Assembly (NCBI GenBank): GCA_018434325.1
Contig: JAHDPO010000007.1
Coordinates: 62,001-126,000 of the forward strand
Origin: Clostridia bacterium
GTDB taxonomy: Bacteria; Bacillota; Peptococcia; DRI-13; UBA5745
Length of the DNA: 64,000 bases
Direction of reading: 5' to 3'
Made by a program: the position numbers and the translations under genes. Positions 11,254 to 29,010 of the stretch are shown here, one piece after another (position 1 is the first letter of the stretch; each line of letters begins with the position of its first letter). A model generated the notes under the pieces. The model was not told where the DNA came from and ran no database searches. It worked only from the letters and a program-made list of their open reading frames with translations.

Positions 11254-11292
11254 TATGATTCCTCACCTGATCTTGCTTTGACCGGCAGCGGT

Positions 11293-13101
<1,809 letters not shown>

Positions 13102-13249
13102 TAAAATTCCTCCACGATCCTTATAAAGGGTCAGAGCATGGCTTTCGACAAACCTTCCAAAAATTTATTCTAACAGTGGGCCGGGCATTTGGCAAGAGAA
13201 ATACTCAGCGCTTTCGCAGCGCTTCCCAAGAAAGCGTGGTAAGAACATC

Positions 13250-14812: not shown

Positions 14813-14919
14813 GGTTCCTCCTGGAAAGTTCCAAATTTATGTTCATTCGGCCGTTACACTTAAACGTCCTCTCTTATTTTACTGGAACTTATCCACTTTG
14901 TCCATTACCCAGCGCTGAA

Positions 14920-15246
14920 TCAACTGCCTTCTCCGACTGCCTTGATCGCCGCCAGCAGGCTTCTGACTTTATCCTGAAAATCGCTCCACTCCTGATTGAT
15001 TCTGCCTTTCATATCATAACCGGTGGTTTCCTGAATGCGATGGCTGACCTGGGCCAAGCCGGCAAAAAGCAGAAGGACAAACAGAAAAAAGATAGCCAGC
15101 ATTCGCAAGAATCGGCTCCCTCGTTTTCTTCTTTCCTCTTTTCTTTGCAAGGTGCGGTCAAGACGGCAAGCTTGTCCAGTGGAACCGGAAACGGCCCTTT
15201 GGCCGCCTCCGGTCGCCGCGCCTTGAGCCTTACGGTTACCGGTCAT
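14920..15246 (-). CDS. Small single-pass membrane protein, unknown
   Basis: 108 aa. A basic N-terminal half (residues 30-45 rich in Arg/Lys) precedes one membrane segment (about 47-65, FLRMLAIFFLFVLLLFAGLA), followed by about 40 residues outside, giving an N-in topology. GGAGA lies 8 bases before ATG 15246. It starts 39 bp after spoIIP ends, so it is probably co-transcribed with that sporulation gene. I do not recognise the family. Confidence 0.6.
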   Translation of the reverse strand: MTGNRKAQGAATGGGQRAVSGSTGQACRLDRTLQRKEERRKRGSRFLRMLAIFFLFVLLLFAGLAQVSHRIQETTGYDMKGRINQEWSDFQDKVRSLLAAIKAVGEGS

Positions 15247-15284
15247 GGTTTATCTCTCCATATTTGCTATCGCTATTATTATTG

Positions 15285-16415
15285 CTATTGCTCTTCTTGC
15301 AAAACCTCCGCCAATACCCGGGCGAAAAGCTTAACGGAGTTGGACGCATCGTCCGCCGTATTCAAATCGCTGCCTACTTCCAGCAATATAGCATGGGGAT
15401 GCAGCTGCTGATTATAGCGGCGATCATTGGCTATCCGCAGGGGTTTCATTAAGCCGGGATAAAGCTCATCGGCTTTTTCCTGGATTTTGCGGGCAAAGGC
15501 TAAATTCGTTTTATAGCCCTCATGGGCGTCGCCCATCACCAAAAGCAGTTTGGCACACTCTACACCCTCTATTTTCACCAAAGTATCCTGCCGTTTATTC
15601 ATGCCGGCATCCCGGTGAAGATCGACGACTACTTCCATATTGGGGTATTTGGTTACGTATTGCTTTAGCAGGTGTTGAGAATTGATGTACGCCTTAGTGA
15701 AATCCGGTCTGTCGTTTACCGTTTCGGAGTGGGCCGTTTTAATGCCGAAATCCCCTTCCAGCGTCTGGGTCAGCATCCTGCCGGCGCTGACCACACCGCC
15801 GATGGTCTTTCTCTTCTCGTCGCCGGTATAAGCCTCGCTGTTGTGGGTATGGTAAATCAAAACCCTGGGATTGCCCTCGGGAATCAGCACTACGTTATCC
15901 ATGGGATATTCCGGCCAGCTATCCGCATAAGGATCCCGGTAAAGAGTATAATCCTCTTCCAAATCCGAGATTAAAAACGCCCCGGCACTGCCGCCGCCCG
16001 CCGGCGTTTTCGCAGGCAAAGGGGAAATTTGTTGGCCAAGGCCTTTCTTTCCCGCAGCAACACTGGTATAATTCAATACGTCGGTGGCTCTTCCCTGGTC
16101 AGGATTGCTCAGCAGCTCGGCGCCGTATTCTTTGCCCGGCAAAGCAGCCTCCAGCAGAAATTGGCGAACCGCCGCCCCCGGATTCTGAGGCCGGCCGGCC
16201 CAAATCAGCTCCGTACCCACCCAGGGTAAGCCCGGTATTTCCGCCGTCATTTGATTTGCTTCTTCATCGCCGGCCCCCAGAAGAGCCTTGCCTTCCCCCT
16301 GCAAGATATAACCTGTCCAAACGCAAGATAAGATAAACATAAAAAGAAAAACCATCAGGCTATAATGAAAACGGTGCTTGCGCATTTCAATTCGAGTGAA
16401 ATTTCTGGGCAGCAT
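15285..16415 (-). CDS. spoIIP: Stage II sporulation protein P (peptidoglycan hydrolase)
   Basis: Amidase/endopeptidase that works with SpoIID and SpoIIM to thin the septum and drive engulfment in the sporulating mother cell; 376 aa. One N-terminal membrane segment (about 19-38) anchors it. The catalytic domain has IYHTHNSEAY (zinc-type histidine region), VVDLHRDAG and ILLEVGSDLNT, all SpoIIP hallmarks. ATG 16415 follows AAGGAGG by 6 bases. This gene identifies the host as a spore former. Confidence 0.96.
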   Translation of the reverse strand: MLPRNFTRIEMRKHRFHYSLMVFLFMFILSCVWTGYILQGEGKALLGAGDEEANQMTAEIPGLPWVGTELIWAGRPQNPGAAVRQFLLEAALPGKEYGAELLSNPDQGRATDVLNYTSVAAGKKGLGQQISPLPAKTPAGGGSAGAFLISDLEEDYTLYRDPYADSWPEYPMDNVVLIPEGNPRVLIYHTHNSEAYTGDEKRKTIGGVVSAGRMLTQTLEGDFGIKTAHSETVNDRPDFTKAYINSQHLLKQYVTKYPNMEVVVDLHRDAGMNKRQDTLVKIEGVECAKLLLVMGDAHEGYKTNLAFARKIQEKADELYPGLMKPLRIANDRRYNQQLHPHAILLEVGSDLNTADDASNSVKLFARVLAEVLQEEQ

Positions 16416-16626
16416 ACCTTACCTCCTTATCTACCATAAACGGGTCTTCACCCTCTATTTATGGATACGCCGCCTTTTTTAATTTATTCCTGAAAATAAA
16501 TCACCTGTTCCGGAGCTGCCTAATCAGCAAAAAATTAATTAAAATAAACCTTGAAATATTGGGTTGATAGTGTTAACATTACTTTGTTAAGCTCTGTTTT
16601 TGAAACGAAGGAGGTGAGTTGAGAGC

Positions 16627-16890
16627 ATGGCCAATATTAAATCCGCAATGAAACGTACGCAGGTGATCCGCATTCGCGCTAAGCGGAACGCTGCTTACCG
16701 ATCCATGATGAAAACCGCTATCCGCCGTTTCGAAGGAGCCCTGAAAGCCGGCGATAAGGAAAAAGCCAAGGGTGAGCTGGTAAAGGCGATCAAGACGATT
16801 GACAAGATCGAAACAAAAGGCGTTATTCATAAGAACACCGCCAGCCGGAAAAAGTCCCGTTTAACCAAGGCTTTGAATAAAGCTTCTTAA
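16627..16890 (+). CDS. rpsT: 30S ribosomal protein S20
   Basis: 87 aa, the standard S20 size. It begins MANIKSAMKRTQV and is rich in Lys, Arg and Ala with the long helical hairpin typical of S20. AAGGAGGTGA lies 9 bases before the ATG. It is divergent from spoIIP, as in the classical holA-rpsT-gpr-spoIIP neighbourhood, but gpr is not here. Confidence 0.98.
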   Translation: MANIKSAMKRTQVIRIRAKRNAAYRSMMKTAIRRFEGALKAGDKEKAKGELVKAIKTIDKIETKGVIHKNTASRKKSRLTKALNKAS

Positions 16891-16931
16891 ATAAAAGCTT
16901 TCCGCATGAGAAAGCCTTTAAACCAGAAAGC

Positions 16932-16968
16932 AAGGTCATTTTGGAAAGTTCCAAAATGACCTTTTTCA
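16932..16968 (+). terminator. Terminator of rpsT
   Basis: 15-base perfect arms (16932-16946 and 16949-16963) with a very short loop, followed by a run of T. Confidence 0.92.
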
Positions 16969-17024
16969 TGTTATTGCGAAATGATAGGCGGAGGTAAAAC
17001 TCAACCGTAAACCTCGGAAAATGC

Positions 17025-17148
17025 GCAAAATTGCAAGTTTAAAGTGTCCTTGACATGGGGTACACATCATTTTTGACTGGTTTTGGCCTGAAAATGATTG
17101 AAAGCTCTATTTTTGGGGTTATGGAATACTTTAAACTTGCAATTTTGC
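17025..17148. mobile_element. MITE-like inverted-repeat element B
   Basis: A perfect 21-base inverted repeat, 17025-17045 and 17128-17148, encloses 82 bases. The arms are the same sequence family as the inner arms of the element at 9502-9645, but the centre is unrelated. It holds no gene. The rest of the 330-base gap between rpsT and the next gene contains only the rpsT terminator and a stem-loop at 17178-17222. Confidence 0.6.
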
Positions 17149-17177
17149 TCAAAAAATGATCTGAGCGAGGTTATGGC

Positions 17178-17222
17178 GATCCTGCCTTTAGGCGAAACGA
17201 CCGCAATTTTATCGGCAGGATC
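17178..17222. other. Stem-loop at the end of the PTS-RLP operon
   Basis: 9-base perfect arms GATCCTGCC (17178-17186) and GGCAGGATC (17214-17222) enclose 27 bases. The second arm overlaps the stop codon of the HAD gene. There is no T run on the minus strand, so it is at best a weak terminator or an mRNA 3' stabiliser. Confidence 0.45.
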
Positions 17223-17877
17223 AAAAAAGAGTCAGAATCTCCTCAGGCGTTGCCGCGATATAATCGGCGCCGGCAGCGCGCAGAGCGGCTGCATCATATC
17301 CGCCGCTCCATAAAACGCCAACGGCCATGGCTCCGGCATTCTTTGCCGTTTGCATATCGATGGGCGTATCTCCGATCAAGAGGCAGCTCTCGGGCAAAAC
17401 CCCAAGCCGGCCACAAAGCAGACGCAGCATGCCCGGATCAGGTTTCAGGGCAAAGCCCGGCCGGTGGCCCATACTGTGGGCAAAGATCTCCGCCGGAAAC
17501 ATCCCCTGGATAATTTTACGGTTTATCTCCTCCGGCTTATTGCTGAGAGCCGCCAAAACAATCCCCTTATCGCGGAGGCTATGCAGAAGCTGGGGCACGC
17601 CGGAAAAATGGCGGGTGTTTTTTAAGGGCTCTATAAGGTAGCGCCTGGACATTTCGGCCACAAATTCCTCCACCTCCAAGCCATGGGCCTGGCCTGCGGA
17701 TATCCGCAATACGCCCTCGGACATGCCATAAGCGCCCAAACCGAACAGGGGGCTGTACTCCTCAAAGGTGATCGCTGCCAATCCAAAGTGGAGCAGGGTT
17801 TCGTTCATCAATAAAAAAACAGCTTCTTTGGTGTCCACCAAGGTGCCGTCTACATCAAATATGGCTGCCCGAATCAT
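17221..17877 (-). CDS. HAD-family phosphatase, phosphoglycolate-phosphatase-like
   Basis: Haloacid-dehalogenase hydrolase, 218 aa. Motif I is FDVDGTLVDT (the two Asp are nucleophile and acid), motif II is ALSNK, motif III is a Lys in the ALKPDP segment, and motif IV is LIGDTPIDM. An alpha-helical cap lies between motifs I and II, as in phosphoglycolate phosphatase and beta-phosphoglucomutase relatives. It is the last gene of the PTS-RLP operon, 12 bp after ptsI. Inference: it removes phosphate from a product or by-product of the pathway; 2-phosphoglycolate is a natural guess next to a RuBisCO relative but is unproven. Confidence 0.88.
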   Translation of the reverse strand: MIRAAIFDVDGTLVDTKEAVFLLMNETLLHFGLAAITFEEYSPLFGLGAYGMSEGVLRISAGQAHGLEVEEFVAEMSRRYLIEPLKNTRHFSGVPQLLHSLRDKGIVLAALSNKPEEINRKIIQGMFPAEIFAHSMGHRPGFALKPDPGMLRLLCGRLGVLPESCLLIGDTPIDMQTAKNAGAMAVGVLWSGGYDAAALRAAGADYIAATPEEILTLF

Positions 17878-17889
17878 ATGTACACCCTT

Positions 17890-19599
17890 TCAATAATATC
17901 CTTTGAGCAGCTCCGTGACCTGGGCAGCCTCGCCTAGCTCCAGGGCCTCCCGGGCAAGCTGCTTGGCTTGGGCATAATCAAGATTACGGATGGTTTTTTT
18001 CACAGTCAGGAGAGAGCTGGCGCTCATGGAAAATTCATCAAGACCCATGCCGATCAAAAGGGGCGCGTACTTTTCCTCCCCCGCCATTTCGCCGCACATG
18101 CCGGTCCACTTTCCCGCCCTGTGGGATACGTCGATCACGTGCTTGATAAGCCGCAGCACCGCCGGATGCAAAGGCTTATAAAAGTCGCTCATCTTTTCGT
18201 TTAAACGGTCCACGGCCAGCGTGTACTGGACAAGATCGTTTGAGCCTATGGAAAAGAAGTCCACATCCTCCACAAAATGCTCGGCCACAATGGCCGCCGC
18301 CGGGATTTCGATCATGATCCCCTTTTCAATATGCTTATTATAAGGGATCCCTTGGCTGTCCAGTTCCGCCATGGCCTCAAAAAGAGCCTGATTCGCTGCT
18401 TTAAGCTCCCATTTGGCGGCAATCATGGGGTACATGATACGGGCTTTCCCGTAACAGCTGGCCCGCAGGATGGCCCGCAGCTGGGATTTGAAAATATGGG
18501 GATGCTGAAGGCAAAGGCGAATGGCCCGCATACCCAAAAACGGGTTCATTTCCGGTTCAATTTGCAAATAAGGAAGGCTTTTATCGCCGCCAATATCCAG
18601 GGTGCGGATGATTACCGCCCGGGAGCCCATGGCTTCAAGAGCTTTCCGATAAGCAAGATACTGCTCCTCTTCATCCGGCAGCGTAGCTCTGTTCATATAT
18701 AAAAACTCTGTCCGAAAAAGGCCCACGCCTTCCGCTCCGTACCTGAGCCCGCTGGCGCAGTCCTCGGCGGAGCCAATATTCACAGCCAGCTCCACTCTCC
18801 TGCCGCCGTCTTTGGTGACTGCGGGAAGATCAACGAGCTGCTGCATTACGTTTTGTGATTCAATATATTCCAGCCGCTTCTGCTCGTAGGTCCGAAGCTG
18901 TTCTTCGCCGGGATTCACAATCACAATGCCTGCCGTGCCGTCCACGATTAAAAGATCACCGTTTTTCGCCGTTTGGGCAATATCTTTTATGCCCAGTACT
19001 GCCGGAATTTCCAGGGAGCGGGCCATAATCGCCGTGTGGGAGGTTCTGCCTCCCAGTTCGGTGACAATAGCCTTTACTTTTTCTTTATCCATGTGAGCGG
19101 TATCCGAAGGGGTCAAATCTCTGGCAATGACGATGCAATCTTCCGCCATTCCGGCGCATCTGTCTCCCTCTTCTCCGGAAAGGCAGCGCAAAAGACGGCT
19201 CGATACGTCGCGAAAATCGCCGGCCCGTTCCTTCAGGTATTCGTCTTCCATCTGATCAAACAGACTGCAATAGCCGTCCATGGTTTTTTTCACAGCACAC
19301 TCGGCTTTACTGCAATCGGACAAAATCAGGCTTTTCGCGTCCTTGTGCAAGGTTTCATCCTGCAGGATGGAAATGTGGGCGTCAAAAATCGCCGCATGCT
19401 TGGCATTCAATTCCCGCAAGGCTTTTTCCTTAACTCCCTGTATTTCTGAAATAGCCTTGTGAATGGCCTCATCCAGACGGAAAATCTCCTGCTGCAAATT
19501 TTCCGCCTTGGCCGTTAAATTTTCCAAATAGTTGGTTTCAGCCAGCACATAGGCGCGTCCGATGGCAATACCCCGGGACGCTGCAATTCCCGTTTTCAT
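17890..19599 (-). CDS. ptsI: PTS Enzyme I (phosphoenolpyruvate-protein phosphotransferase)
   Basis: Starts the PTS relay by moving phosphate from PEP to HPr; 569 aa, normal length. The phosphohistidine motif GGRTSHTAIMARS is near residue 190; the PEP-binding barrel has GLFRTEFLYM, IRTLDIGGDK, and MCGEMAG. GGGGAGGAG precedes the ATG. It lies 40 bp after the HPr gene inside the RLP operon rather than at a separate housekeeping ptsHI site, so it looks dedicated to this system; whether another ptsHI exists elsewhere cannot be seen. Confidence 0.97.
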   Translation of the reverse strand: MKTGIAASRGIAIGRAYVLAETNYLENLTAKAENLQQEIFRLDEAIHKAISEIQGVKEKALRELNAKHAAIFDAHISILQDETLHKDAKSLILSDCSKAECAVKKTMDGYCSLFDQMEDEYLKERAGDFRDVSSRLLRCLSGEEGDRCAGMAEDCIVIARDLTPSDTAHMDKEKVKAIVTELGGRTSHTAIMARSLEIPAVLGIKDIAQTAKNGDLLIVDGTAGIVIVNPGEEQLRTYEQKRLEYIESQNVMQQLVDLPAVTKDGGRRVELAVNIGSAEDCASGLRYGAEGVGLFRTEFLYMNRATLPDEEEQYLAYRKALEAMGSRAVIIRTLDIGGDKSLPYLQIEPEMNPFLGMRAIRLCLQHPHIFKSQLRAILRASCYGKARIMYPMIAAKWELKAANQALFEAMAELDSQGIPYNKHIEKGIMIEIPAAAIVAEHFVEDVDFFSIGSNDLVQYTLAVDRLNEKMSDFYKPLHPAVLRLIKHVIDVSHRAGKWTGMCGEMAGEEKYAPLLIGMGLDEFSMSASSLLTVKKTIRNLDYAQAKQLAREALELGEAAQVTELLKGYY

Positions 19600-19639
19600 A
19601 GGCTCCTCCCCAAATAGTTTGAACTCTGTTTAATTCGGC

Positions 19640-19900
19640 TTAATCTTGCAAGCTTTCCAAAAATTCCGCTGCTTTTGTTATGGCTTCTTCTTCGTCACTG
19701 CCTTCCGCCTGCAAGATAAAGGAGGCTCCGCTGCCGATACCGCCGGTAAGCAAGGATACGATACTTTTTGCGTCGATCTCCTTATCCTTATAAAGGATCA
19801 ATAGACGGGATTGAAAACCGTTGGCGAATTTTACGAAAGCAGTTGCCGGCCGGGCATGCAGGCCGGTCTGATTTTGAATGACTATCTCTTTTTTTAACAT
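19640..19900 (-). CDS. ptsH: PTS phosphocarrier protein HPr
   Basis: 86 aa. The active-site His15 lies in QTGLHARPA. Ser46 in AKSIVSLL is present, so regulation by HPr kinase is possible, as in other Firmicutes. The strong AGGAGG site lies before the ATG. It stands between the sigma-54 activator and ptsI. Some residues differ from housekeeping HPr (for example LLTGGIGSGASF instead of the common LMSLGVKQG-like segment), consistent with a specialised copy. Confidence 0.95.
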   Translation of the reverse strand: MLKKEIVIQNQTGLHARPATAFVKFANGFQSRLLILYKDKEIDAKSIVSLLTGGIGSGASFILQAEGSDEEEAITKAAEFLESLQD

Positions 19901-19958
19901 AGGGGATCTCCTCCTAATTGCAGCATGATATCATACAGCTCCCTGGGCGTCTTTGCCG

Positions 19959-22808
19959 CTAAAAGCGGCGGCGAAACCCCTTGCCGGCGCCCAGGCTATA
20001 AATCTGCTTAATAATCGCTTCACAGGGATTTTTCAGGGCAAGAAACAGGACAATGTTGCAATAGAATCCTTTTTCCCAAAGAATTGGCCGGGAAAGAGTC
20101 GCTACAGCAACGGCTGAGCGCAGGGTGTGCTCCGGGTAAGTGTGGGCAAGAGCGATGCCCTTGGTAAATCCGGTATTGCCCTGAGCCTCCCGCTGCATAA
20201 TTCCCTCCAGGTAGGAATCCGCTACAAAGCCTTCTTTGGCCATAGCCTCCGCCACATGGCGGATGAGGGCAGTCTTAGAACGTATTTCCAGCTGCGGAAA
20301 AAACAGCCGAGGCTGTAAAAGACTATCTATTCCCTGAATAGCCGGCGCCAGGGGCTCCAAATATTGAAAATGCAGCCGCACAAGAGCCCGAATCTCCGAA
20401 AGGCCTTGCTGGTCCATGGCTTTTCGCATAGAGATATAAAGAATATCCTTTATTCCCGGATCAACGGTTCCAATCATGGCGATAATTTGCTTTTTACGGC
20501 GCATTTCGCTGATCTGCTCCAAATAATTATCCGTCATCACCCCCAGGGGAATGATTTCCGTCTTATGCTCGGCAAGGAGGGGGACATTCTGCTCTAAAAT
20601 TTGTTTGATCTCCATGGCAGCGCCTTTGCCGGTCATACATAGGATAACGATAGCCTTCGGCAAATCTTTTTTTATAGAATAGACGGTATAGGGGCTTTCT
20701 TTGCCCACACTTTCATACAGCTCCGTAAGACTCAGATTCTGATGAGCCGCTTTGAAAGCGGCATCCAACACCATGGCTGTATGCACCTTGGCAATGGATT
20801 TTGTGGGGATTCCGGTTTCTTTCTGTATGACGTCGCCAAGGGTAACCGTCGCCCCCATATCGGCCAAAAGCAGTATGCCCTTTCCCTCGTGAGAGGCCTT
20901 GGCCATGGCGATGGTTTGCGATACATAGGCGGTGTTTTTTTCTTCCAGGTTGATACAGATATGGCGGACGAAATCAATCTCCAAAAGCCGGTTGGCCACT
21001 TCAGCCATCTCGCGGCCCACATAGCCGTGAGTGACCACAAAAACCTGCACACAACTTTTCGTTGGGGGGTATGCCTGGTTTTGGGCAAGATAAAGAGCGA
21101 TATAAGCGGCTTCCTCGTCGGGGAAGCCACAAGCCAGCTTTTGCTCCGCCAGGGCCAGCATTTTCCGGGCAAGTGCAAATTCTTTAGGATAGTTCGCCTT
21201 AATCTGTTCAAGCCGGGGATTCATGATGGGTTTTTTCTGGCGCAGGCGCTCATAGCTTTGGTGAAAATGAATGGAGAGGTAATAAGCGATATCCTCATTC
21301 AAAGGACCCGTCTCCTCTGCCGCCAGCGCCTCCATCTCCTGCAGGGTCTCCAGCAGCGAGGGCCCTACTATTGCACCGATACCCAGCCGCTCCGAACCGG
21401 AACTGATCTGGTTCAAGTTGCGCAGAGTGCGTTTTAAGCGGCTTTCCAGCTCGTCTCCCACGATTTTTTGGGTTTCATAGCCGGAAACCCCTTCCTGCTC
21501 CAGTTGGCGATGACGTTCTTCAATGAATTTATAAATCCCGTCAGGCATGAGGAAGGTATCGCTCTCATCAAAAACCCATACCTGGGCCTCGTCAGGCAAT
21601 ACCCGGATGCCCTTGTCGAGATAGGGAACGAGAGCCTTTTCCGAATATTTGCGGCGTAAAAGGCCCTCCTTGACATTCTCCGAAAAATCCAGCAGCGTAA
21701 CGGCCAGCAGCTTATCCCGATTGTCCAGATGCCGGATATAGGCCCTGGCGCAGGATACCTGAATATCAGATAAAAGCTGGCCGATGTTTCCGTAGCAATC
21801 GTAGGCTAGAAGGGCGCAAATCACCTCAGAGCTGACATTAATTCCCGCCCCGATACGCACCGCTTCCTGCAGAAAAAAGCTTTTAATCAGCTCGTAACGC
21901 TCCTGGATACTGCGGTGGCGCAGAGGCGGTATTTCAATAATCATGGGAATACGCCGGGTAAAAGGCAAGGTCAGGCTTGAGCCGATTTCCTCCGTGGTGG
22001 CCCCGATGATCATTATCTGAATATCCCGCTCTTTTCCCGTTTCACCAAGGCGGCGGTATTTACCTTTGTCAATAATGGTGAACAGGATTTCCTGGCCTTC
22101 CGGAGGCAGGCGATGGATTTCGTCAAGAAACAGAATGCCACCGTCGGCTTTTTCCACCAGCCCCGTTTTATCTGCATCCGCGCCCGTAAAAGAACCTTTT
22201 ATATGACCGAAGAGCTGAGAAACCAGCAGCTGAGGGTTGTTATAGTAATCGGCGCAGTTGAAGCGAACAAATTTGCCTTTATCCACCCCTCGCTTTTCAT
22301 GAGCGATCTGAAACATGATCTCGGCAAGAACGGTTTTGCCGGTACCCGTCTCCCCCAAAATCAGTGTGTGCAGACCCCGGGGCGGATAGCAAACGGCTGC
22401 CTCTGCTTTTTTCAGGATGGGCTGCATGCTGCCTGTTTTGCCCACCAGCCGCTCAAGGGGAGAAGCAGGAAGCTTGGGCGCTTCCGGCGGCTCCCACCGC
22501 GCCTGAGGCAGCTCTCTGCGATAAGCGGATACGGTGTATTTGGAAATATCGTAACCCTCCTCCTGCAAAAGCCGGGTCAGCTCCCGATCCGATAAAAGAG
22601 GATCTTTCTGCAAGAGGCGCTGCAAGTCTTCCTGCAGATAAGGTTTGCGTCTTTCGGAATAAGAGGGGATTCCGGTTTTTTGGCGCAGCCGCACAACCAC
22701 CTGCCTGGACAGACGAAGCTCATTGGCCAACTGGTCATCCGTTAAAGGGGTCTTCTTACTTTCCGAAGCGATCAGCTTCACCAGCAGCGTTTCCCATTTG
22801 ACGCCCAT
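19959..22808 (-). CDS. LevR-type sigma-54 activator with PTS-responsive domains
   Basis: 949 aa. Domains by sequence: N-terminal helix-turn-helix region (about 1-100); AAA+ sigma-54 activator domain with Walker A GETGTGKT (152-159), GSFTGA (205-210, a GAFTGA variant that contacts sigma-54) and Walker B LFLDE (226-230); a PTS regulation domain (about 460-560); an EIIA-Man-like domain with VTHGYVGREMA (about 580-700); an EIIB-like segment with ILCMTGKGAAM (about 715-800); and a C-terminal mannitol/fructose-type EIIA-like domain with GIALAHTYPEH. The start at 22808 has GGAGG 7 bases away. It lies downstream of EIIC in the operon it presumably controls from the -24/-12 promoter at 27553-27568. 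PTS phosphorylation of its histidines would report substrate flux (family knowledge). Confidence 0.92.
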   Translation of the reverse strand: MGVKWETLLVKLIASESKKTPLTDDQLANELRLSRQVVVRLRQKTGIPSYSERRKPYLQEDLQRLLQKDPLLSDRELTRLLQEEGYDISKYTVSAYRRELPQARWEPPEAPKLPASPLERLVGKTGSMQPILKKAEAAVCYPPRGLHTLILGETGTGKTVLAEIMFQIAHEKRGVDKGKFVRFNCADYYNNPQLLVSQLFGHIKGSFTGADADKTGLVEKADGGILFLDEIHRLPPEGQEILFTIIDKGKYRRLGETGKERDIQIMIIGATTEEIGSSLTLPFTRRIPMIIEIPPLRHRSIQERYELIKSFFLQEAVRIGAGINVSSEVICALLAYDCYGNIGQLLSDIQVSCARAYIRHLDNRDKLLAVTLLDFSENVKEGLLRRKYSEKALVPYLDKGIRVLPDEAQVWVFDESDTFLMPDGIYKFIEERHRQLEQEGVSGYETQKIVGDELESRLKRTLRNLNQISSGSERLGIGAIVGPSLLETLQEMEALAAEETGPLNEDIAYYLSIHFHQSYERLRQKKPIMNPRLEQIKANYPKEFALARKMLALAEQKLACGFPDEEAAYIALYLAQNQAYPPTKSCVQVFVVTHGYVGREMAEVANRLLEIDFVRHICINLEEKNTAYVSQTIAMAKASHEGKGILLLADMGATVTLGDVIQKETGIPTKSIAKVHTAMVLDAAFKAAHQNLSLTELYESVGKESPYTVYSIKKDLPKAIVILCMTGKGAAMEIKQILEQNVPLLAEHKTEIIPLGVMTDNYLEQISEMRRKKQIIAMIGTVDPGIKDILYISMRKAMDQQGLSEIRALVRLHFQYLEPLAPAIQGIDSLLQPRLFFPQLEIRSKTALIRHVAEAMAKEGFVADSYLEGIMQREAQGNTGFTKGIALAHTYPEHTLRSAVAVATLSRPILWEKGFYCNIVLFLALKNPCEAIIKQIYSLGAGKGFRRRF

Positions 22809-22869
22809 CCGGTCCCCTCCTTTCCTTAACATTTCTATCTTGTCAAAATATTATGCCCTTGCCAGGTCA

Positions 22870-24174
22870 TTACCATGCGTACTTTGCCAGGCCAAGGAGC
22901 TTACCCACATAGCCTATAAGGGTAACGACCACCGCCTGGTCGGCGTCACAGGCGATCTGGGCCCATTCCAGCTCCGGCACAATCATGGGGAAATACAATG
23001 CGCGAACAATGGTGGTCAGAAAGCCGTACAAAGCCGCACAGATAATCGCCGCCCGGCGTCCGCCGAATTTATTGGCATAAATAGCAGTAATGCCGCCGCC
23101 AAAGAAGTTCTCTACGTTTACCATCATAATGGGGACAGGAAGATTCATCTGCATGAGAACCACCATGCCCAAAGCGGAAAAAATAGTGGACGTAATAAAG
23201 CCGATGATCAGAGAGGTGTTGCCATATTGGAAAAAAACGGGGCCGTCAAAAGCGGGGATAGCGCCGGATACCAGCCGGGTGGAAATACCCTGGAAAGCCG
23301 GCGTGATCTCGGCAAGGAAGCTGCGGATACCATAAAGCAGAACCATATAGCTTCCGGAAAAGAGTAAGCCTTGGAACAGAGCAAACAATATCCAGTTTTG
23401 GCCGCCGGAGATCGTCTCCATATAGGCCTGGCCGTTAAACAGCGCCAGGATGAGATACATACCCATCATGGTGAGAGACAGGGTAACAACGATCTCCTTC
23501 AAAAACGACAGCCGGTCCGGAACTTCTATATCCTCCATATTTTTTTCCGGGTTGCCGATTTTGGGAGCAATGACAGAAGCAATCAGAGCAAAGAAACTGG
23601 CGCCGTGGCCCAAGGCCATAGGAAGACCTCCGGTAAGCTTGGCGGTATATGGCTGCAAAATATAAGGAAACACAGCCTGGTAAATGCCCAGAATAATACC
23701 GCCGATAATGATGGGCGCCGCTCCGGTCAAGCCGAGATAATTCATTACGCAAGCGGCGATGAACTGGGCCATGAAAAAGGACCAGTGGCCGGTCAGGTAA
23801 ATCATTTTGATCTTGGTAAAGCGAGCGATCAGAATATTTACCACATAACCGATCAGCAGCATATAGCCGGCCATGGCCCCGGTCTCAGCCGCCGAGAAAT
23901 TCACCGGCACACGGATAGCGTTTTCAAGACCCTGACCGCCGGTAATCAGGTTGGCAAACATGTTCGTAAACACACCAACAGCTGCCTGTACGGAATTTAA
24001 GCCTAAAGTGAAGATAGTAACGCCGATATAGGTTTTAATGACACCGGAAACGATTTTCTCCACCGGCTTTTTCAACAATACCAGGCCGACCAGAGAAATG
24101 AGGGACATGACGATTTCCGTTTTAGTCAGAATCTGGCTTACAATGATATTGCCAACTATTTGTAAGATTTCCAT
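22870..24174 (-). CDS. PTS EIIC membrane permease, ascorbate type (UlaA/SgaT-like)
   Basis: 434 aa with about 10-11 membrane segments. It begins MEILQIVG, and the blocks GVIKTYIG, YLTGHWSFF, FLAEITPAFQGISTRLVSGA and AIYANKFGGRRAA match the layout of the ascorbate/SgaT EIIC family. I start at 24174 because GGAGG lies 8 bases upstream; the longer frame has no site. It would form the membrane channel that receives phosphate from the separate EIIB and EIIA upstream. Substrate may be a sugar acid, lactone or related polyol; ascorbate itself is doubtful because no UlaG lactonase or UlaD decarboxylase gene is nearby. Confidence 0.9.
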   Translation of the reverse strand: MEILQIVGNIIVSQILTKTEIVMSLISLVGLVLLKKPVEKIVSGVIKTYIGVTIFTLGLNSVQAAVGVFTNMFANLITGGQGLENAIRVPVNFSAAETGAMAGYMLLIGYVVNILIARFTKIKMIYLTGHWSFFMAQFIAACVMNYLGLTGAAPIIIGGIILGIYQAVFPYILQPYTAKLTGGLPMALGHGASFFALIASVIAPKIGNPEKNMEDIEVPDRLSFLKEIVVTLSLTMMGMYLILALFNGQAYMETISGGQNWILFALFQGLLFSGSYMVLLYGIRSFLAEITPAFQGISTRLVSGAIPAFDGPVFFQYGNTSLIIGFITSTIFSALGMVVLMQMNLPVPIMMVNVENFFGGGITAIYANKFGGRRAAIICAALYGFLTTIVRALYFPMIVPELEWAQIACDADQAVVVTLIGYVGKLLGLAKYAW

Positions 24175-24264
24175 GTTCTTTCCCTCCATTATAATGTAAC
24201 TTACGAGGATGAACAATCGCCGGGCGCCGGGCGCCTTCGGCACAGAGCACGGTAAGACGCAGGA

Positions 24265-24549
24265 TCAGATGATCCCGGCTTCTTGCAGTTTTTGAGCCAT
24301 CTCCTCTTTGCTGCTGAAGTTTTTGATACAAAGAACCGGTATTTTGCCATTAAACTGCTCTTTCAACCCGTCATAAAAAGCTGTGGAGGTAATAATCAGA
24401 TTGACATCTCCCGGCACCGTGCCCGAATCGTAGCAATCGACATTGGCATTGATTTTTTGCTCATCCAGGACGTTGGTAGCAAGCATTTTCAGCAGAAGGG
24501 AACTGCCCATTCCGCAGCCGCATACGCAGCCAATATTCAGTCTCGCCAT
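24265..24549 (-). CDS. PTS EIIB, ascorbate type (UlaB-like)
   Basis: 94 aa. The phospho-accepting loop is VCGCGMGSS near the N-terminus; by alignment with UlaB (CGNGQGSS) Cys10 is the phosphocysteine. The Rossmann-like EIIB fold length fits. It lies 29 bp after EIIA and 90 bp before EIIC. It takes phosphate from EIIA and gives it to the sugar as it enters through EIIC. Confidence 0.92.
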   Translation of the reverse strand: MARLNIGCVCGCGMGSSLLLKMLATNVLDEQKINANVDCYDSGTVPGDVNLIITSTAFYDGLKEQFNGKIPVLCIKNFSSKEEMAQKLQEAGII

Positions 24550-24578
24550 TTGTCTCCCTCACTTTCATTAAAATAACA

Positions 24579-25022
24579 TCAGATAAGCAGGCGGTATATC
24601 TCCTCCGGGGTTATAGCGGCCAGTATCTTTTCTGCCTTCTCCTTTTGGCTGATCAGGCCCACCACATCGCCAAGGCATTCCAGGTGCTCCCCCTTCTCGC
24701 TGGAAGCCAGGGCCACAACGATTGATACGGGATCATTATCCTCGTGCCCAAAATGCACGGGAGGCGTCAGCGTAATTAAACTTATCCCTGTTTTCAAGGC
24801 CCCATCCTCCGGTCGGGCGTGGGCCAGAGCAAATCCCGGCAAAATGACGATATAGGGGCCGAACTCCTCCACATAGCCAATCATTTTACCAATGAAAGCT
24901 TCTTCAACAATTTCTTCTTTGACGAGAAGCCGGCCGGCTTCCCTTACTGCGCTTTTCCAGTCCGGACAGGCAAGGTTGCAGGCAATGGCATCCTTTGACA
25001 AAAAGTTTGCAATATTGGACAT
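24579..25022 (-). CDS. PTS EIIA, ascorbate type (UlaC-like)
   Basis: 147 aa, PTS_EIIA type 2 fold. The phosphohistidine is His68 in GFALAHARPEDG, matching APGLAMPHGRPEEG of UlaC; EEFGPYIVILPG and HEDNDPVSIVVALAS are further shared blocks. GGAGG is 4 bases before ATG. Together with EIIB and EIIC downstream it makes a complete Enzyme II. Confidence 0.93.
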   Translation of the reverse strand: MSNIANFLSKDAIACNLACPDWKSAVREAGRLLVKEEIVEEAFIGKMIGYVEEFGPYIVILPGFALAHARPEDGALKTGISLITLTPPVHFGHEDNDPVSIVVALASSEKGEHLECLGDVVGLISQKEKAEKILAAITPEEIYRLLI

Positions 25023-25097
25023 GGGTCCTCCTTCTTTGCGGATAGTTCGCCGGGCCCCTTTGCTGTGACTATCCGGATTATACCTTCTTTTTTATTC

Positions 25098-26141
25098 TCA
25101 GGGAATAAGAATAACCTTCAAAACCTGACCTTTTTCCGCCAGCTCCACAGCCTCGTTAATTTGCTCCAGAGGCATTTCGGCAATATAGGCATCCGTATCA
25201 AAGGCCTTCTTTGCAAGAAGCTCCATGATCTGGGAGAAATGCCTTTTGCAGGAGCCCATTGTGCCGAATACCGCCATTTGCTTATAGTGGATCAGGCCGT
25301 GGTCCATAGCCAGCATTTTATCCTTTTCGTTCAGCCCTCCAAAGAGAATGATCCGACCGCCAAAGCAGGCAAGCTCCGGAGAAATGGACTGCAGATGAGG
25401 TACGGAGCAAGCAATAACCACAATATCCGCTCCCCGGCCGCCGGTATACTCCAGCACCTTTTCCTTCAGATCTTCTTTGGAGCTGTCGATCAGATATTCG
25501 GGGCCGGAGGCCTTGGCGGCAAGCTCAAGTCTCAGGGCGGATATATCAGCCAATATACAGGTGACGCCTTTGGCCCGCAGAAGATCAACATGCATCGCCC
25601 CGATAGGGCCTGCCCCTACGACAACGGCCGTCTCGCCTGCCCGGATAGTGATCAGCTCATGAGAATTCAAAACGTCGGTAAAGGGCTCCACCAAAGCGGC
25701 TTCCGCATAACTTACATTCTCCGGTATCGGCACTATCGGCCCCCGCTCCACCATTTCTTTTTTCAAAGCGATATATTCGGCATAGCCTCCCTGATAATCC
25801 GGGTCATGTTGGCCCAAGCTGTGGTAAATCGCATTTTCACAGAGGTTGTCGATGCCTTTTTGGCAGTTGGGACAATGGCCGCAGGAAATAACGGAACCGA
25901 TAGCAATTCTGTCACCCACCGCAAACAAATAAGTATCTGATTCAATCACGTCGCCGGTTACCTCATGGCCCAACAGCACAGGATAGCGGAAATGGCTGCT
26001 GCCGTTTCTGATCTTGCGGATGTCGGAGCCACAGAGACCGCAGGCCTTCACTTTCATCAGAAGTCCGCCGGCGGGACAGGCGGGAGTTGCTACTTCCCTG
26101 ACGTGAAGCTGGTTTACCCCATCCAACATAGCAGCTTTCAT
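25098..26141 (-). CDS. Zinc-dependent medium-chain dehydrogenase
   Basis: 347 aa, MDR superfamily. Catalytic zinc region CGLCGSD and GHEVTGDV; structural zinc cysteines in CGHCPNCQKGIDNLC; nucleotide-binding GAGPIGAMH near residue 175 followed by an acidic residue (LADIS) that favours NAD over NADP. It is closest in layout to sorbitol, threonine or L-threonate-type secondary-alcohol dehydrogenases. It lies 16 bp after the RLP gene. Inference: it oxidises a secondary hydroxyl of the imported sugar phosphate to the keto compound acted on by the RLP. Confidence 0.92.
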   Translation of the reverse strand: MKAAMLDGVNQLHVREVATPACPAGGLLMKVKACGLCGSDIRKIRNGSSHFRYPVLLGHEVTGDVIESDTYLFAVGDRIAIGSVISCGHCPNCQKGIDNLCENAIYHSLGQHDPDYQGGYAEYIALKKEMVERGPIVPIPENVSYAEAALVEPFTDVLNSHELITIRAGETAVVVGAGPIGAMHVDLLRAKGVTCILADISALRLELAAKASGPEYLIDSSKEDLKEKVLEYTGGRGADIVVIACSVPHLQSISPELACFGGRIILFGGLNEKDKMLAMDHGLIHYKQMAVFGTMGSCKRHFSQIMELLAKKAFDTDAYIAEMPLEQINEAVELAEKGQVLKVILIP

Positions 26142-26157
26142 AGAATCCTTCCTTTCG

Positions 26158-27489
26158 TCAGATGAGATAGTTTTTCTTGATATTTTCTTCCCCTACGACG
26201 CCCCATTTATCGATAGCCACCTGGAGCTCTTTATGAGTCTTGGCATACTCCCGAAGAGGAATACCTTTTTTTGCCGCATCAATAGCCTGACGAAGGGCTT
26301 TGGCCCCGGCTGTAGGCCCTTCCGGGAAACCATGCACTGCGGCGCCGGCGCCCATGATGCAATCGTCGCCCACCAAGTCCATCATATAGGGGATGTTGCC
26401 GGCAATGGTGCCGCCGCCCCACAAGGTGAAAATCGGCTTAATATCGTAAAATTTGCCGGTACCGGTGATCATCGCCTTAATGGACACATGCTGCAACTGG
26501 TCAAATTTTCCGATGGGATGGGGAATGACCTGAATATCCGCACCGCAAAGGCGGGTCAGTTTGTTGATGACCGTCGTGCTGATTCCCTGGTAAGGAGAGG
26601 AATAAGCTGTGCCCGTAAAGCAAGGATGGGAAAGGATGGGTACGTTGACGTCAGGGTCCTCTGCCAACATCCGCAAGGCGGCAAGGCCGTTTGCCCAGCC
26701 GTCGATCATGATGGCATTGGCGCCGGCCCTGATGGCCTTCATGGCGTTGTCTTTCAAGCGGCTTATCTCATCGGTGATGTTGCAGGTATAAAGGGTTTTT
26801 TCGCCCTTCACCTTTTCCGCCCGGTAGGCTGCCTCCATATTTTTGGAAACCCTTTCTTCAATGGTATTGAACTTGCGGTCGCCGGCAATCAGCTCATCAT
26901 CTTTGATGAAGTCCACGCCGCCGACAGCAGCTTTATAGAAGAGGTCGGCGCCAACATCAGGAGTATAGCCGGTACAGGGTTTAATCATATTGTTGAGCAG
27001 CGGACGGTCATAAACTCCCAGAATATTGCGAATACCTTCAATCCCGAACTTGGGGCCTTTAAAAGTCCGGACAAAGCTTTCCGGGAAATCGATGTCCAGG
27101 CATTTCATGTTGGGCAGCGCGCTGATGTTGCCCATGATGGAACCCAGCAAAAGAGGGATATCGTCGTCAAAGTTGACGGCAGGATAGCCGATGCGCAGGA
27201 TATAATAGCGCAGACCATTATCCGGGATCACCCGCAGATCGGTGGCGTTCACGTAATCCGGAACCTCATAGACGCCAAATACCTTGCCGGCATATAGCCT
27301 CCTCATTTCATCGGTTTCGCAGGATACATCGGTCCAGGAGCCGGTGGTCTGCTCAATGGCAATGCTTGCGGCCTTGACGATGGGGTCTTCGTGTTTTTCC
27401 GCACCCACAAGATATGTGGCTACCAGATATTCATTGAGATTTACGCCTTCTACCATAGGGTTCAATACGGTGCTGTAGAATTTATTCAT
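26158..27489 (-). CDS. RuBisCO-like protein (form IV, RLP)
   Basis: 443 aa, homologous to the RuBisCO large subunit. Aligned by motif: E46 and W52 (spinach E60, W66), N121 (N123), K170 (K175), K196/D198/E199 in GGVDFIKDDE (carbamylated K201 and metal ligands D203, E204), H288 (H294). Lost or changed: K177 is Cys172, R295 is Pro289, and the loop-6 GKLEG motif with K334 is not conserved in position. So the magnesium/enolisation site is kept but the protein should not fix CO2 on ribulose bisphosphate. The start at 27489 follows AGGAGG; the longer frame has no site. It is the first gene after a sigma-54 promoter and leads a PTS operon. Known RLPs act as enolases, isomerases or (trans)decarboxylases on sugar phosphates; this one has no assigned reaction. 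Confidence 0.95.
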   Translation of the reverse strand: MNKFYSTVLNPMVEGVNLNEYLVATYLVGAEKHEDPIVKAASIAIEQTTGSWTDVSCETDEMRRLYAGKVFGVYEVPDYVNATDLRVIPDNGLRYYILRIGYPAVNFDDDIPLLLGSIMGNISALPNMKCLDIDFPESFVRTFKGPKFGIEGIRNILGVYDRPLLNNMIKPCTGYTPDVGADLFYKAAVGGVDFIKDDELIAGDRKFNTIEERVSKNMEAAYRAEKVKGEKTLYTCNITDEISRLKDNAMKAIRAGANAIMIDGWANGLAALRMLAEDPDVNVPILSHPCFTGTAYSSPYQGISTTVINKLTRLCGADIQVIPHPIGKFDQLQHVSIKAMITGTGKFYDIKPIFTLWGGGTIAGNIPYMMDLVGDDCIMGAGAAVHGFPEGPTAGAKALRQAIDAAKKGIPLREYAKTHKELQVAIDKWGVVGEENIKKNYLI

Positions 27490-27552
27490 GCCTTCATTCC
27501 TCCTTCTCAGTCTCAGTGGCGACAGCTGAACCGCTTTCACCTTATATTGAGA

Positions 27553-27568
27553 AGCAAAAGACATGCCA
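27553..27568 (-). promoter_or_regulatory. Sigma-54 (-24/-12) promoter of the PTS-RLP operon
   Basis: On the minus strand TGGCATGTCTTTTGCT matches the TGGCAC-N5-TTGCW consensus at all but one position, with exact spacing between GG (-24) and GC (-12). Predicted transcription start is near 27542, leaving a leader of about 53 bases before the RLP ATG. The operon encodes its own sigma-54 activator. Confidence 0.85.
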
Positions 27569-27623
27569 TCCTGTGGAAGGAAGTGTTATCCCCTGATCGA
27601 TTATGCTGATTCCAAAGGTAATT

Positions 27624-27645
27624 TTTCAATAAAATAATTTTGAAA
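27624..27645. promoter_or_regulatory. Candidate upstream activator site
   Basis: Dyad TTTCAA (27624-27629) - 10 bases - TTGAAA (27640-27645) in AT-rich DNA about 70-90 bases upstream of the -24 box, a normal place for an enhancer of a sigma-54 activator. A short dyad in AT-rich DNA can arise by chance. The rest of the 424-base gap holds the two promoters and no gene. Confidence 0.35.
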
Positions 27646-27825
27646 TGTTATAATGCATAAATTTTATCAGTCATTGCCGGAACTTTTTATTCCAGTTTTA
27701 CGGTTTTTCCTCTGTTTACGGCGGGCGGAAGTAAAAGTTCAGCCAGGCAAAGCGGACCAGCGAAAAAGCTCACAAAAATCTTGAGTCATAACAAATCATT
27801 ATGCCTTTTGGTATAGAATACGTTA

Positions 27826-27855
27826 GTTGTTATTCCTTGCCAAACCTTTTATAAT
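27826..27855 (+). promoter_or_regulatory. Sigma-A promoter of the PLP dehydratase gene
   Basis: TTGTTA (27826-27831), an 18-base spacer, and a perfect TATAAT (27850-27855), about 60 bases before the start codon. Confidence 0.65.
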
Positions 27856-27913
27856 TTTATAAATATAGTGATGGCCTGACTGATGTGTACCAACGAGATG
27901 AGGAGGTCGAATT

Positions 27914-28903
27914 TTGGAGAAGACAATTTTGACACTGCAGGATGTGCAGGAAGCCGCAGACCGAATCCGCCCCTATATTCGCCGCACGCCTTTGCTGCGG
28001 CAAGAAAACATGGACAAGACATTGGGGTGCGAAGTTTTCCTGAAGGCTGAAATGCTCCAGTACACCGGCGCCTTCAAGCTGCGGGGAGCTCTCAACAAAA
28101 TCTTATCTCTGAGTCCGGAGGAGCTTAAAAAAGGGATTATCTGCACCTCTTCCGGCAACCACGCTCAAGCTTGCGCCTATGTGGGCCGTATGCTTGGGAT
28201 ACCGGTAACCGTGATTGTGCCGGAGGACTGTCCCAAAATTAAGATTGAAAATACGCAAGCCATGGGGGCACGGGTGGTTCTGTGGGAGCGACTCTTTGCC
28301 GCACGCTGGAAAAAGGTCAATCAGGAAGCCGCAGAAAACGGCTACAGCATTATCAGCTCCTTTGACGATCCTCTGGTAATGGCGGGCCAGGGTACTGTGG
28401 CTCTGGAAATCCTGGAAGATTATCCGGATATCGACACCCTGCTGGTGCCGGCCAGCGGCGGGGGGCTTCTATCCGGAATTGCCACAGCGGTGAAGGAGCT
28501 GGGCAAGGAAATCAGGATTATTGGGGTGCAGGCAGCCGCCAGCGCCGCTTACTACTTCAGCCACCAGGCCGGCCACCCGGTTGTGGTGGAAAGCAGGCCC
28601 TCCATCGCAGACGCCTTGGAATGCAGCCGTATCGGCGAAAGAAACTATCCCATCATAGAGAAATATGTCGATGACTTTGCAATCGTAGAGGAAGAAGCCA
28701 TTAAAGAGGCGGTCAAGTTGGTGGCGCGCAATGCGAAGCTGATAGCGGAGCCTTCAGCCTGTGTGGGTGTGGCGGCTTTGCTTTCTCAAAAGATAGCGCT
28801 GCGTCCCGGAGAAAAAGTCTGCGCCGTCCTGTCCGGGGGCAATTGGAGTCTGGATATGTTAGGAAAATTATATAATAATGAGCTGCCTGAGGCCCTCCAC
28901 TAA
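27914..28903 (+). CDS. PLP-dependent threonine/serine dehydratase-like protein
   Basis: 329 aa, fold type II. The PLP lysine is in TGAFKLRGA, the Asn loop is SSGNHAQACA, the phosphate-binding Gly loop is PASGGGLLSG, and a Ser/Gly motif occurs at VLSGGNWS. It lacks the C-terminal ACT domain of biosynthetic IlvA, so it is a catabolic threonine dehydratase, serine racemase or hydroxy-aspartate ammonia-lyase type. The start is TTG at 27914, seven bases after AGGAGG. It is divergent from the RLP operon and shares its 424-base control region, so a link to that pathway is possible but not shown. Confidence 0.88.
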   Translation: MEKTILTLQDVQEAADRIRPYIRRTPLLRQENMDKTLGCEVFLKAEMLQYTGAFKLRGALNKILSLSPEELKKGIICTSSGNHAQACAYVGRMLGIPVTVIVPEDCPKIKIENTQAMGARVVLWERLFAARWKKVNQEAAENGYSIISSFDDPLVMAGQGTVALEILEDYPDIDTLLVPASGGGLLSGIATAVKELGKEIRIIGVQAAASAAYYFSHQAGHPVVVESRPSIADALECSRIGERNYPIIEKYVDDFAIVEEEAIKEAVKLVARNAKLIAEPSACVGVAALLSQKIALRPGEKVCAVLSGGNWSLDMLGKLYNNELPEALH

Positions 28904-28973
28904 GCCTGCGGGGTACCGGTCACTGCAATGGCCGGAATCAAAAAGTCAAAAAAGCCAATTAAAAGGTCATCAA

Positions 28974-29010
28974 AAAGCCCTTGAATACGTCGAAGGTTTT
29001 CAAGGGCTTT
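28974..29010. terminator. Terminator between the dehydratase gene and wecB
   Basis: 12-base perfect arms AAAGCCCTTGAA (28974-28985) and TTCAAGGGCTTT (28999-29010). The minus-strand side has a run of five T; the plus side has a weaker T-rich tail. It serves two convergent genes. Confidence 0.88.

Follow-up and report, generated by a model that had tools for sequence, protein, structure and literature searches.

In a 64,000-nucleotide (nt) stretch of the genome of an anaerobic Clostridia bacterium (assembly GCA_018434325.1, contig JAHDPO010000007.1, positions 62,001 to 126,000; hereafter the window, with positions counted from its first letter), nine minus-strand genes (17221-27489) bring together a RuBisCO-like protein (RLP), a zinc-dependent dehydrogenase and a complete phosphotransferase system (PTS). 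An earlier reading of the letters alone (the sequence-only reading) had described this pairing, which is not confined to the operon: it occurs a second time in the same genome and recurs in other bacteria. Chance cannot explain the association of RLP and PTS, and the pairing points to an undescribed sugar breakdown route. The operon is quite probably a self-contained catabolic unit, in which a compound would be phosphorylated by the PTS, oxidised by the zinc dehydrogenase and then carried through an enediolate step by the RLP. The RLP reactions reported so far are proton abstraction, isomerisation, decarboxylation and oxygenation, and just a handful of RLPs have been characterised to date, according to PMC10176493; an actinobacterial RLP of unknown function is reported in PMC7325909.

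Gene content and promoter of the operon

The sequence-only reading had described a nine-gene PTS operon led by an RLP, and all genes were confirmed at their place and on the minus strand, with family assignments that hold. The intergenic gaps are 12, 40, 58, 37, 21, 29, 75 and 16 nt. First of all, the RLP gene (26158-27489, 443 aa) encodes both RuBisCO large-chain Pfam domains (RuBisCO_large 162 bits, cut-off 30); its longest open reading frame (ORF) starts at 27564, but the ATG at 27489 has an AGGAGG ribosome-binding site and is therefore taken as the start, in agreement with the sequence-only reading. It is followed by the zinc-dependent medium-chain dehydrogenase (25098-26141, 347 aa; ADH_N and ADH_zinc_N domains), whose NCBIfam matches (IolM at 155 of 450 bits, threonine 3-dehydrogenase and others) are all below cut-off. 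Next come the PTS genes EIIA (24579-25022, 147 aa; fructose/mannitol/ascorbate type, PTS_EIIA_2), EIIB (24265-24549, 94 aa; PTS_IIB, with the phosphocysteine motif CGCGMGSS) and EIIC (22870-24243; GAT superfamily, EIIC-GAT 279 bits against a cut-off of 24), the last of which probably begins at an ATG about 50-70 nt inside its ORF. The run continues with the activator gene (19959-22832, 957 aa), HPr (19640-19900, 86 aa, recognised by family model and translation, with His15 and Ser46 present) and Enzyme I (17890-19599, 569 aa; 673 bits against a cut-off of 342), and ends with a HAD phosphatase (17221-17877, 218 aa), which resembles phosphoglycolate phosphatase at 107 of the 180 bits of that model's cut-off.

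The PTS phosphorelay of the operon is thus complete (Enzyme I, HPr, EIIA, EIIB and EIIC), and its phosphorylation residues (HPr His15 and Ser46, the EIIB Cys, the His motifs of EIIA and Enzyme I) are legible in the translations. In the L-ascorbate (Ula) pathway the closest types to the window EIIC (UlaA) and EIIA are found, and yet all three subunits remain under the Ula equivalog cut-offs (EIIC 358 of 380, EIIA 101 of 187 and EIIB 25 of 138 bits), and UlaG, UlaD, UlaE and UlaF are absent from the nine genes. The activator is of LevR/DagR type, since it combines a sigma-54 AAA+ domain, whose GAFTGA-type loop here reads GSFTGA, with PRD, EIIA-man and EIIA-2 domains; DagR itself was ruled out (424 of 1400 bits). 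In this respect the operon is like the LevR-controlled PTS operons of Firmicutes (for example levDEFG), whose PTS genes are likewise controlled by a sigma-54 activator that combines PRD and EII domains; it differs in bringing its own Enzyme I and HPr, and no LevR-controlled PTS operon is known to contain an RLP.

A sigma-54 (-24/-12) promoter-like element, TGGCATGTCTTTTGCT (TGGCAT-N5-TTGCT; 27553-27568, minus strand), which the sequence-only reading had missed, lies 64 nt upstream of the RLP start codon. No other site in the window matches with fewer than two mismatches. With two or fewer mismatches allowed, 29 matches were counted against 40 expected by chance, so that only this near-exact match counts. 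It agrees at 16 of 17 positions with the sigma-54 consensus published for Clostridiales, TTGGCATNNNNNTTGCT, in a paper whose accessible part mentions neither RuBisCO nor ribulose (PMC6615313). The rpoN gene is present in the source genome. The view of the genes as one unit is supported by the compact gene run and the one promoter match at its head, from which we infer co-transcription. Scans for sigma-70 promoters and terminators performed no better than on shuffled sequences, and no Rfam match at the gathering threshold was found at 16000-29000. Divergent from the operon, and with an upstream region in common, lies a gene for a pyridoxal phosphate enzyme of threonine/serine dehydratase type (27914-28903, plus strand), with no obvious role in the pathway.

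Recurrence of the RLP-PTS pairing

The source genome (3.83 Mb, 70 contigs) was found to contain two RLPs (by family search), two GAT-type EIIC, two Enzyme I and two HPr genes, and all the Enzyme I, HPr and GAT-type EIIC genes found sit in two RLP operons, one in the window and one on contig 42. The contig-42 run (L017, 20000-39999) begins with a Cof-type HAD phosphatase and 2-oxoacid dehydrogenase-like E1 alpha, E1 beta, E3 and E2 genes, and continues with ADH, EIIB, EIIA, an EIIC closest to the galactitol type, RLP, LevR, HPr, Enzyme I and GAPDH. Sigma-54-like sites precede its Cof gene and lie close to where the E1 alpha gene begins, and its LevR has the loop GAFTGA where the window copy has GSFTGA. 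Between the two operons the RLP, ADH, LevR, HPr and Enzyme I are 34-49% identical, while blastp at 1e-4 returned no match for the EII subunits; therefore, the operons are not the product of a recent duplication. A further sugar-import PTS on contig 10 was rejected, in a search that left aside the mannose/sorbose-type EII families: the PF02378 EIIC-like membrane ORF there (L157, 7667-9747) lies directly 5′ of an ORF read as an EAL-domain protein. This PF02378 protein is probably a sensor, and possibly a PTS-like sensor of cyclic di-GMP.

Beyond this genome, neighbouring genes were labelled by hidden Markov models built from few members each, and some labels reach further than their names: "FucA" picks up MtnB as well, "TktN" and "TktC" pick up E1 subunits of pyruvate dehydrogenase, and "NAGDsir" takes in GlpB-like proteins and lipoamide dehydrogenases. 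Loci L018, L020 and L025 were left out as duplicates of L039, L040 and L082, and many loci end at contig ends. In the class, an RLP match at E <= 1e-20 was found in 9 of 46 genomes, at 11 places, and nine of these loci have Enzyme I and HPr. This number includes L022 (Enzyme I, two HPr, LevR and ADH), which was scored as non-PTS as its contig ends before any EIIC. As for the remaining two, the only PTS gene of L026 is an EIIC, which stands with genes for an SDR and an FGGY kinase, and L018, on a contig of 8.9 kb, has no PTS gene.

In the phylum (398 genomes), an RLP at E <= 1e-40 was found in 45 genomes and a GAT-type EIIC in at least 79, the EIIC counts being lower bounds (at most four candidates scored per genome). 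A GAT-type EIIC lies within 10 kb of the RLP at 8 of 49 RLP places, against 0.11 expected, a figure computed from 137 EIIC places and an assumed mean genome of 3 Mb. When 128 RLP loci were placed with five reference proteins on a tree (a quick one, in which long branches, including that of the contig-42 RLP, are flagged), an EIIC was found within 9 kb of the RLP in 13 loci, and this label needs at least eight changes, gains or losses, on the tree. Other hosts of the pairing are Propionispira raffinosivorans (strain DSM 20765, L043, where EIIABC, ADH and RLP occur together), Caproicibacter fermentans, a Solobacterium metagenome-assembled genome (MAG) and two more MAGs. In genome G144 (L126, 4631-16438), the gene order is Enzyme I, EIIA, EIIB, EIIC, HPr, RLP, GlpA, a GlpB-sized ORF, GlpC and enolase, with GlpA (narrowly in one model) and GlpC above curated cut-offs. 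The general pairing is thus strengthened well beyond the original observation.

In 297 kb (the window and 13 loci), the strict pattern TGGCAY-N5-TTGCW was found 12 times, against a mean of 0.45 and a largest value of 3 in 20 shuffles. Several of these sites are directly upstream of PTS genes (EIIA or Enzyme I), one precedes the Cof gene heading the contig-42 run, and at least three are elsewhere. Within 9 kb of the RLP, a strict site is present in 7 of the 13 PTS loci versus 7 of the 115 others (9 sites in 217 kb versus 7 in 1.75 Mb).

Active site of the RLP and the proposed route

The window RLP was aligned with annotated form I RuBisCO, MtnW and OiaX sequences taken from plasmids (93 sequences in all), and positions are given in spinach-type RuBisCO numbering. 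It retains the equivalents of E60, W66, N123, K175, K201, D203, E204, H294, K334, G381 and G403; T65 is replaced by Ser and G404 by Ala, and C, P, V and G stand in place of K177, R295, H327 and S379, respectively. That is to say, it is a form IV protein (RLP), with both large-chain domains and the KDDE metal motif kept and key carboxylase residues lost. A true RuBisCO (forms I-III) was ruled out, the set of catalytic and phosphate-binding residues being incomplete and the type III score 256 of 497 bits. Membership of OiaX (NF042437; 161 of 700 bits) and of MtnW (327 of 409 and 291 of 514 bits, with Asn at the N123 position where MtnW has Lys) was also ruled out. The letters at positions 60, 123 and 334 are G, K and S in MtnW, D, G and K in OiaX, and E, N and K in the window RLP; since the residues differ and the cut-offs of both families are missed, it is distinct from both. 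The loss of R295 and H327 would fit a substrate with one phosphate.

An AlphaFold model of the RLP, built from 11 sequences, has a mean pLDDT of 78.9, with values below 50 at residues 51-53 and 291-301 and in the loop-6 region (325-329), so that the model supplies no docking argument. The 50 structures listed as matches (MtnW, other RLPs and RuBisCO) align over the RLP length with Z scores of 36.5-41.4, and among them MtnW and a Chlorobium RLP tie as the top matches. MtnW, the form IV enolase of 2,3-diketo-5-methylthiopentyl-1-phosphate, is thus like the window RLP in its fold (VIA-align Z 41, tied with other RLPs), its KDDE motif, its His294 equivalent and the loss of the second-phosphate site. 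Its lysine at the N123 position is said, from work by Imker in 2007, to act as a base.

In the route proposed for the operon, expression would be turned on by the LevR-type activator together with sigma-54. A sugar-like compound would then be imported by Enzyme I, HPr and EIIA/B/C and phosphorylated at a terminal CH2OH, and the zinc dehydrogenase would convert a secondary alcohol into a ketone, plausibly beside the phosphate, giving R-CO-CH2-OPO3. Known RuBisCO and RLP substrates share this R-CO-CH2-OPO3 group, and the carbon next to CH2-OPO3 is the one that glycerol-3-phosphate dehydrogenases oxidise. Using Mg2+ and a carbamylated lysine, the RLP would form an enediolate, and the HAD enzyme may strip the phosphate from a product. 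The RLP most probably enolises a keto-sugar monophosphate, and its net reaction would most likely be a carbonyl-shifting isomerisation (of a keto-polyol phosphate), ranked slightly above decarboxylation of a keto-acid (keto-aldonate) phosphate. The isomerisation is favoured by EIICs closest to the polyol type, by GlpA-type partners and by thiamine-type enzymes (transketolase, pyruvate dehydrogenase E1) beside three PTS-linked RLPs, although the last are not significantly enriched.

The strongest competing explanation, which is possible but rather doubtful, is that the PTS imports a sugar acid, that the dehydrogenase makes a 3-keto-acid phosphate, and that the RLP decarboxylates it or cleaves a C-C bond hydrolytically, as for 3-oxo-isoapionate 4-phosphate. 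The carboxylate-handling residues K334, E60 and N123 are indeed retained, the window EIIC is closest to the ascorbate type, enolase occurs in two PTS-RLP loci, and the operon has its phosphoglycolate-phosphatase-like enzyme. In addition, a gene of the D-2-hydroxyacid dehydrogenase family stands directly after EIIC in L021, L023 and L025 (family checked in two of the three), the position being taken by ADH in L019, L020 and L043. OiaX and related D-apionate RLPs likewise belong to catabolic operons for sugar-derived compounds and are fed by a phosphorylated keto compound. However, the OiaX locus and a related locus, unlike the window operon, encode a four-carbon acid sugar kinase and rely on ABC or TRAP systems for import, and OiaX, apart from the low score and differing active-site letters given above, itself has G at 123 and keeps R295. 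Moreover, the four sibling EIICs tested fit the galactitol (polyol) model best, although all below its cut-off, and the glycerol-3-phosphate enzymes adjoining related RLPs suggest polyols.

It is unlikely that the PTS serves general sugar uptake, with the RLP and dehydrogenase as unrelated neighbours under a common promoter. The operon does hold one of just two Enzyme I/HPr gene pairs found in the genome, but both complete PTS sets have their own RLP, dehydrogenase and sigma-54 activator, despite only 34-49% identity, and the pairing recurs far above chance. The weakest explanation, that the RLP is the methionine-salvage enolase MtnW placed by accident beside a general PTS operon, is very improbable: MtnW is the top-scoring known family and among the tied best structural matches, and an MtnA homologue lies elsewhere in the genome (a search for MtnK, run with no positive control, gave no match), but both cut-offs are missed, the Lys of MtnW occurs among the 93 sequences only in annotated MtnW and 16 Paenibacillus loci, no mtn gene is in the operon, and the PTS link recurs on several branches.

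Apparent exchange of kinase, PTS and dehydrogenase around RLPs

Among the relatives of the window RLP (best 80 of 554), the six nearest, 57-63% identical, are from Clostridium thailandense, C. drakei, Amazonia massiliensis, Curtanaerobium, Eubacterium sp. An11 and a Lachnospiraceae MAG. A GlpK-type kinase is near five of them, and a SorC/DeoR-type regulator gene is at all six loci. In C. drakei, a glycerol kinase above its cut-offs stands beside a GlpA-like oxidase below its own, and the C. thailandense locus, which has DhaK and DhaL nearby, is read as also having DhaM, the kinase fed by PTS phosphoryl groups. Across the 128 loci, 42 of the 115 RLPs not linked to a PTS have an FGGY kinase nearby, versus 1 of the 13 that are linked (Fisher p 0.059), and a dehydrogenase of ADH, D-2-hydroxyacid or GlpA type is near 11 of 13 PTS-linked RLPs versus 14 of 115 others (p 1e-7), neither count being independent of kinship. 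Both results agree with the sequence-only reading, in which the PTS replaced the kinase and the dehydrogenase was a partner of the RLP. PTS and kinase therefore look interchangeable next to RLPs, and in our reading the RLP requires a compound that has already been phosphorylated and oxidised, by whichever enzymes are available.

Several observations weigh against the proposed route. Around the six nearest RLPs, the available stretches, some of which end near the RLP, gave no match to Enzyme I, HPr, EII or LevR. Of the eight co-located RLP-EIIC places, all but G144 belong to the order of the window, so that these seven are not independent. L106 is without any counted dehydrogenase and L026 has only its SDR; dehydrogenases of these families are widespread, and loci that share ancestry do not count as independent cases. 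For transketolase-type genes, the difference between PTS loci (3 of 13) and the others (9 of 115) is not significant (p 0.11), and no strict sigma-54 site is within 9 kb of the RLP in 6 of the 13 PTS loci. Finally, an isomerase cannot be told from a decarboxylase by the presence of E60, N123 and K334: E and N, together with R at 334, are also found in an RLP whose gene adjoins mtnK, mtnA and transketolase.

The genome-neighbourhood check on which the sequence-only reading had staked its claim thus came out in two parts: the general pairing of RLP and PTS is upheld, but the exact pair is not conserved. Since no import PTS was found around the six nearest RLPs in the available stretches, the window pair seems to have originated separately, on a branch of its own, and it is lineage-specific. 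Among four other genomes of the same genus, an RLP was found in G023 alone (44% identical, with a galactitol-like PTS), the other three being 80-85% complete.

Other branches have neighbourhoods of their own. The same broad RLP group, with FGGY kinases nearby, includes archaeal loci (L041, L042, L057, L060, L061, L065, L073, L074, L076 and L078) and Chloroflexota loci (L038, L045, L046, L049 and L050); a class III aminotransferase-like gene occurs in the RLP run of archaeal L060 and of Syntrophaceae L066. In a second RLP sub-family (L084, L085, L087-L090, L092-L094, L106 and L109), the E60 and K334 equivalents are absent. Triosephosphate-isomerase-like and RpiB-like genes occur together in nine loci of this sub-family and its relatives (L106 at 9995-15305, L085, L092, L109, L129, L131, L135, L139 and L145), the families having been checked for L106 and for the RpiB of L109; this pair recalls erythrulose-phosphate handling and suggests polyols for the second branch. 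A clade of 11 RLPs (L116-L125 and L127; 48-51% identical to the window RLP) stands in an unexplained conserved cluster beside proteins provisionally labelled "UPF0261" and TIM-barrel ("TIMpep"); a relative with the first label matches a "hypothetical protein" model and one with the second matches nothing. On a Shinella plasmid (L115), the RLP adjoins mtnK, mtnA and a split transketolase, and it groups with Bacillota RLPs, several of which are also beside transketolase-like genes.

With the case about evenly balanced, RLPs may form a core of anaerobic sugar catabolism that recurs and is exchangeable, and around which the phosphorylating modules (PTS, or FGGY/glycerol-type kinase) and the oxidising modules (zinc, D-2-hydroxyacid or GlpA-type dehydrogenase) have repeatedly been swapped; the reaction of the window RLP on a PTS-derived keto-sugar monophosphate would then be new among RLPs, with most RuBisCO catalytic residues kept. 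Around a conserved enzyme, kinase and PTS thus seem to have been exchanged naturally several times, in one direction or the other. The sequence-only reading had known of no PTS-fed RLP, and none is described in the literature searched, which holds few subscription papers; the operon joins the PTS and the RuBisCO superfamily, which were not found together in that literature. The genome narrows the substrate of the window RLP to a compound that can be phosphorylated by the PTS and oxidised by the linked dehydrogenase, and thus the function of a large RLP group, spread over archaea, Chloroflexota, Bacillota, Thermodesulfobacteriota and others, becomes testable with one operon.

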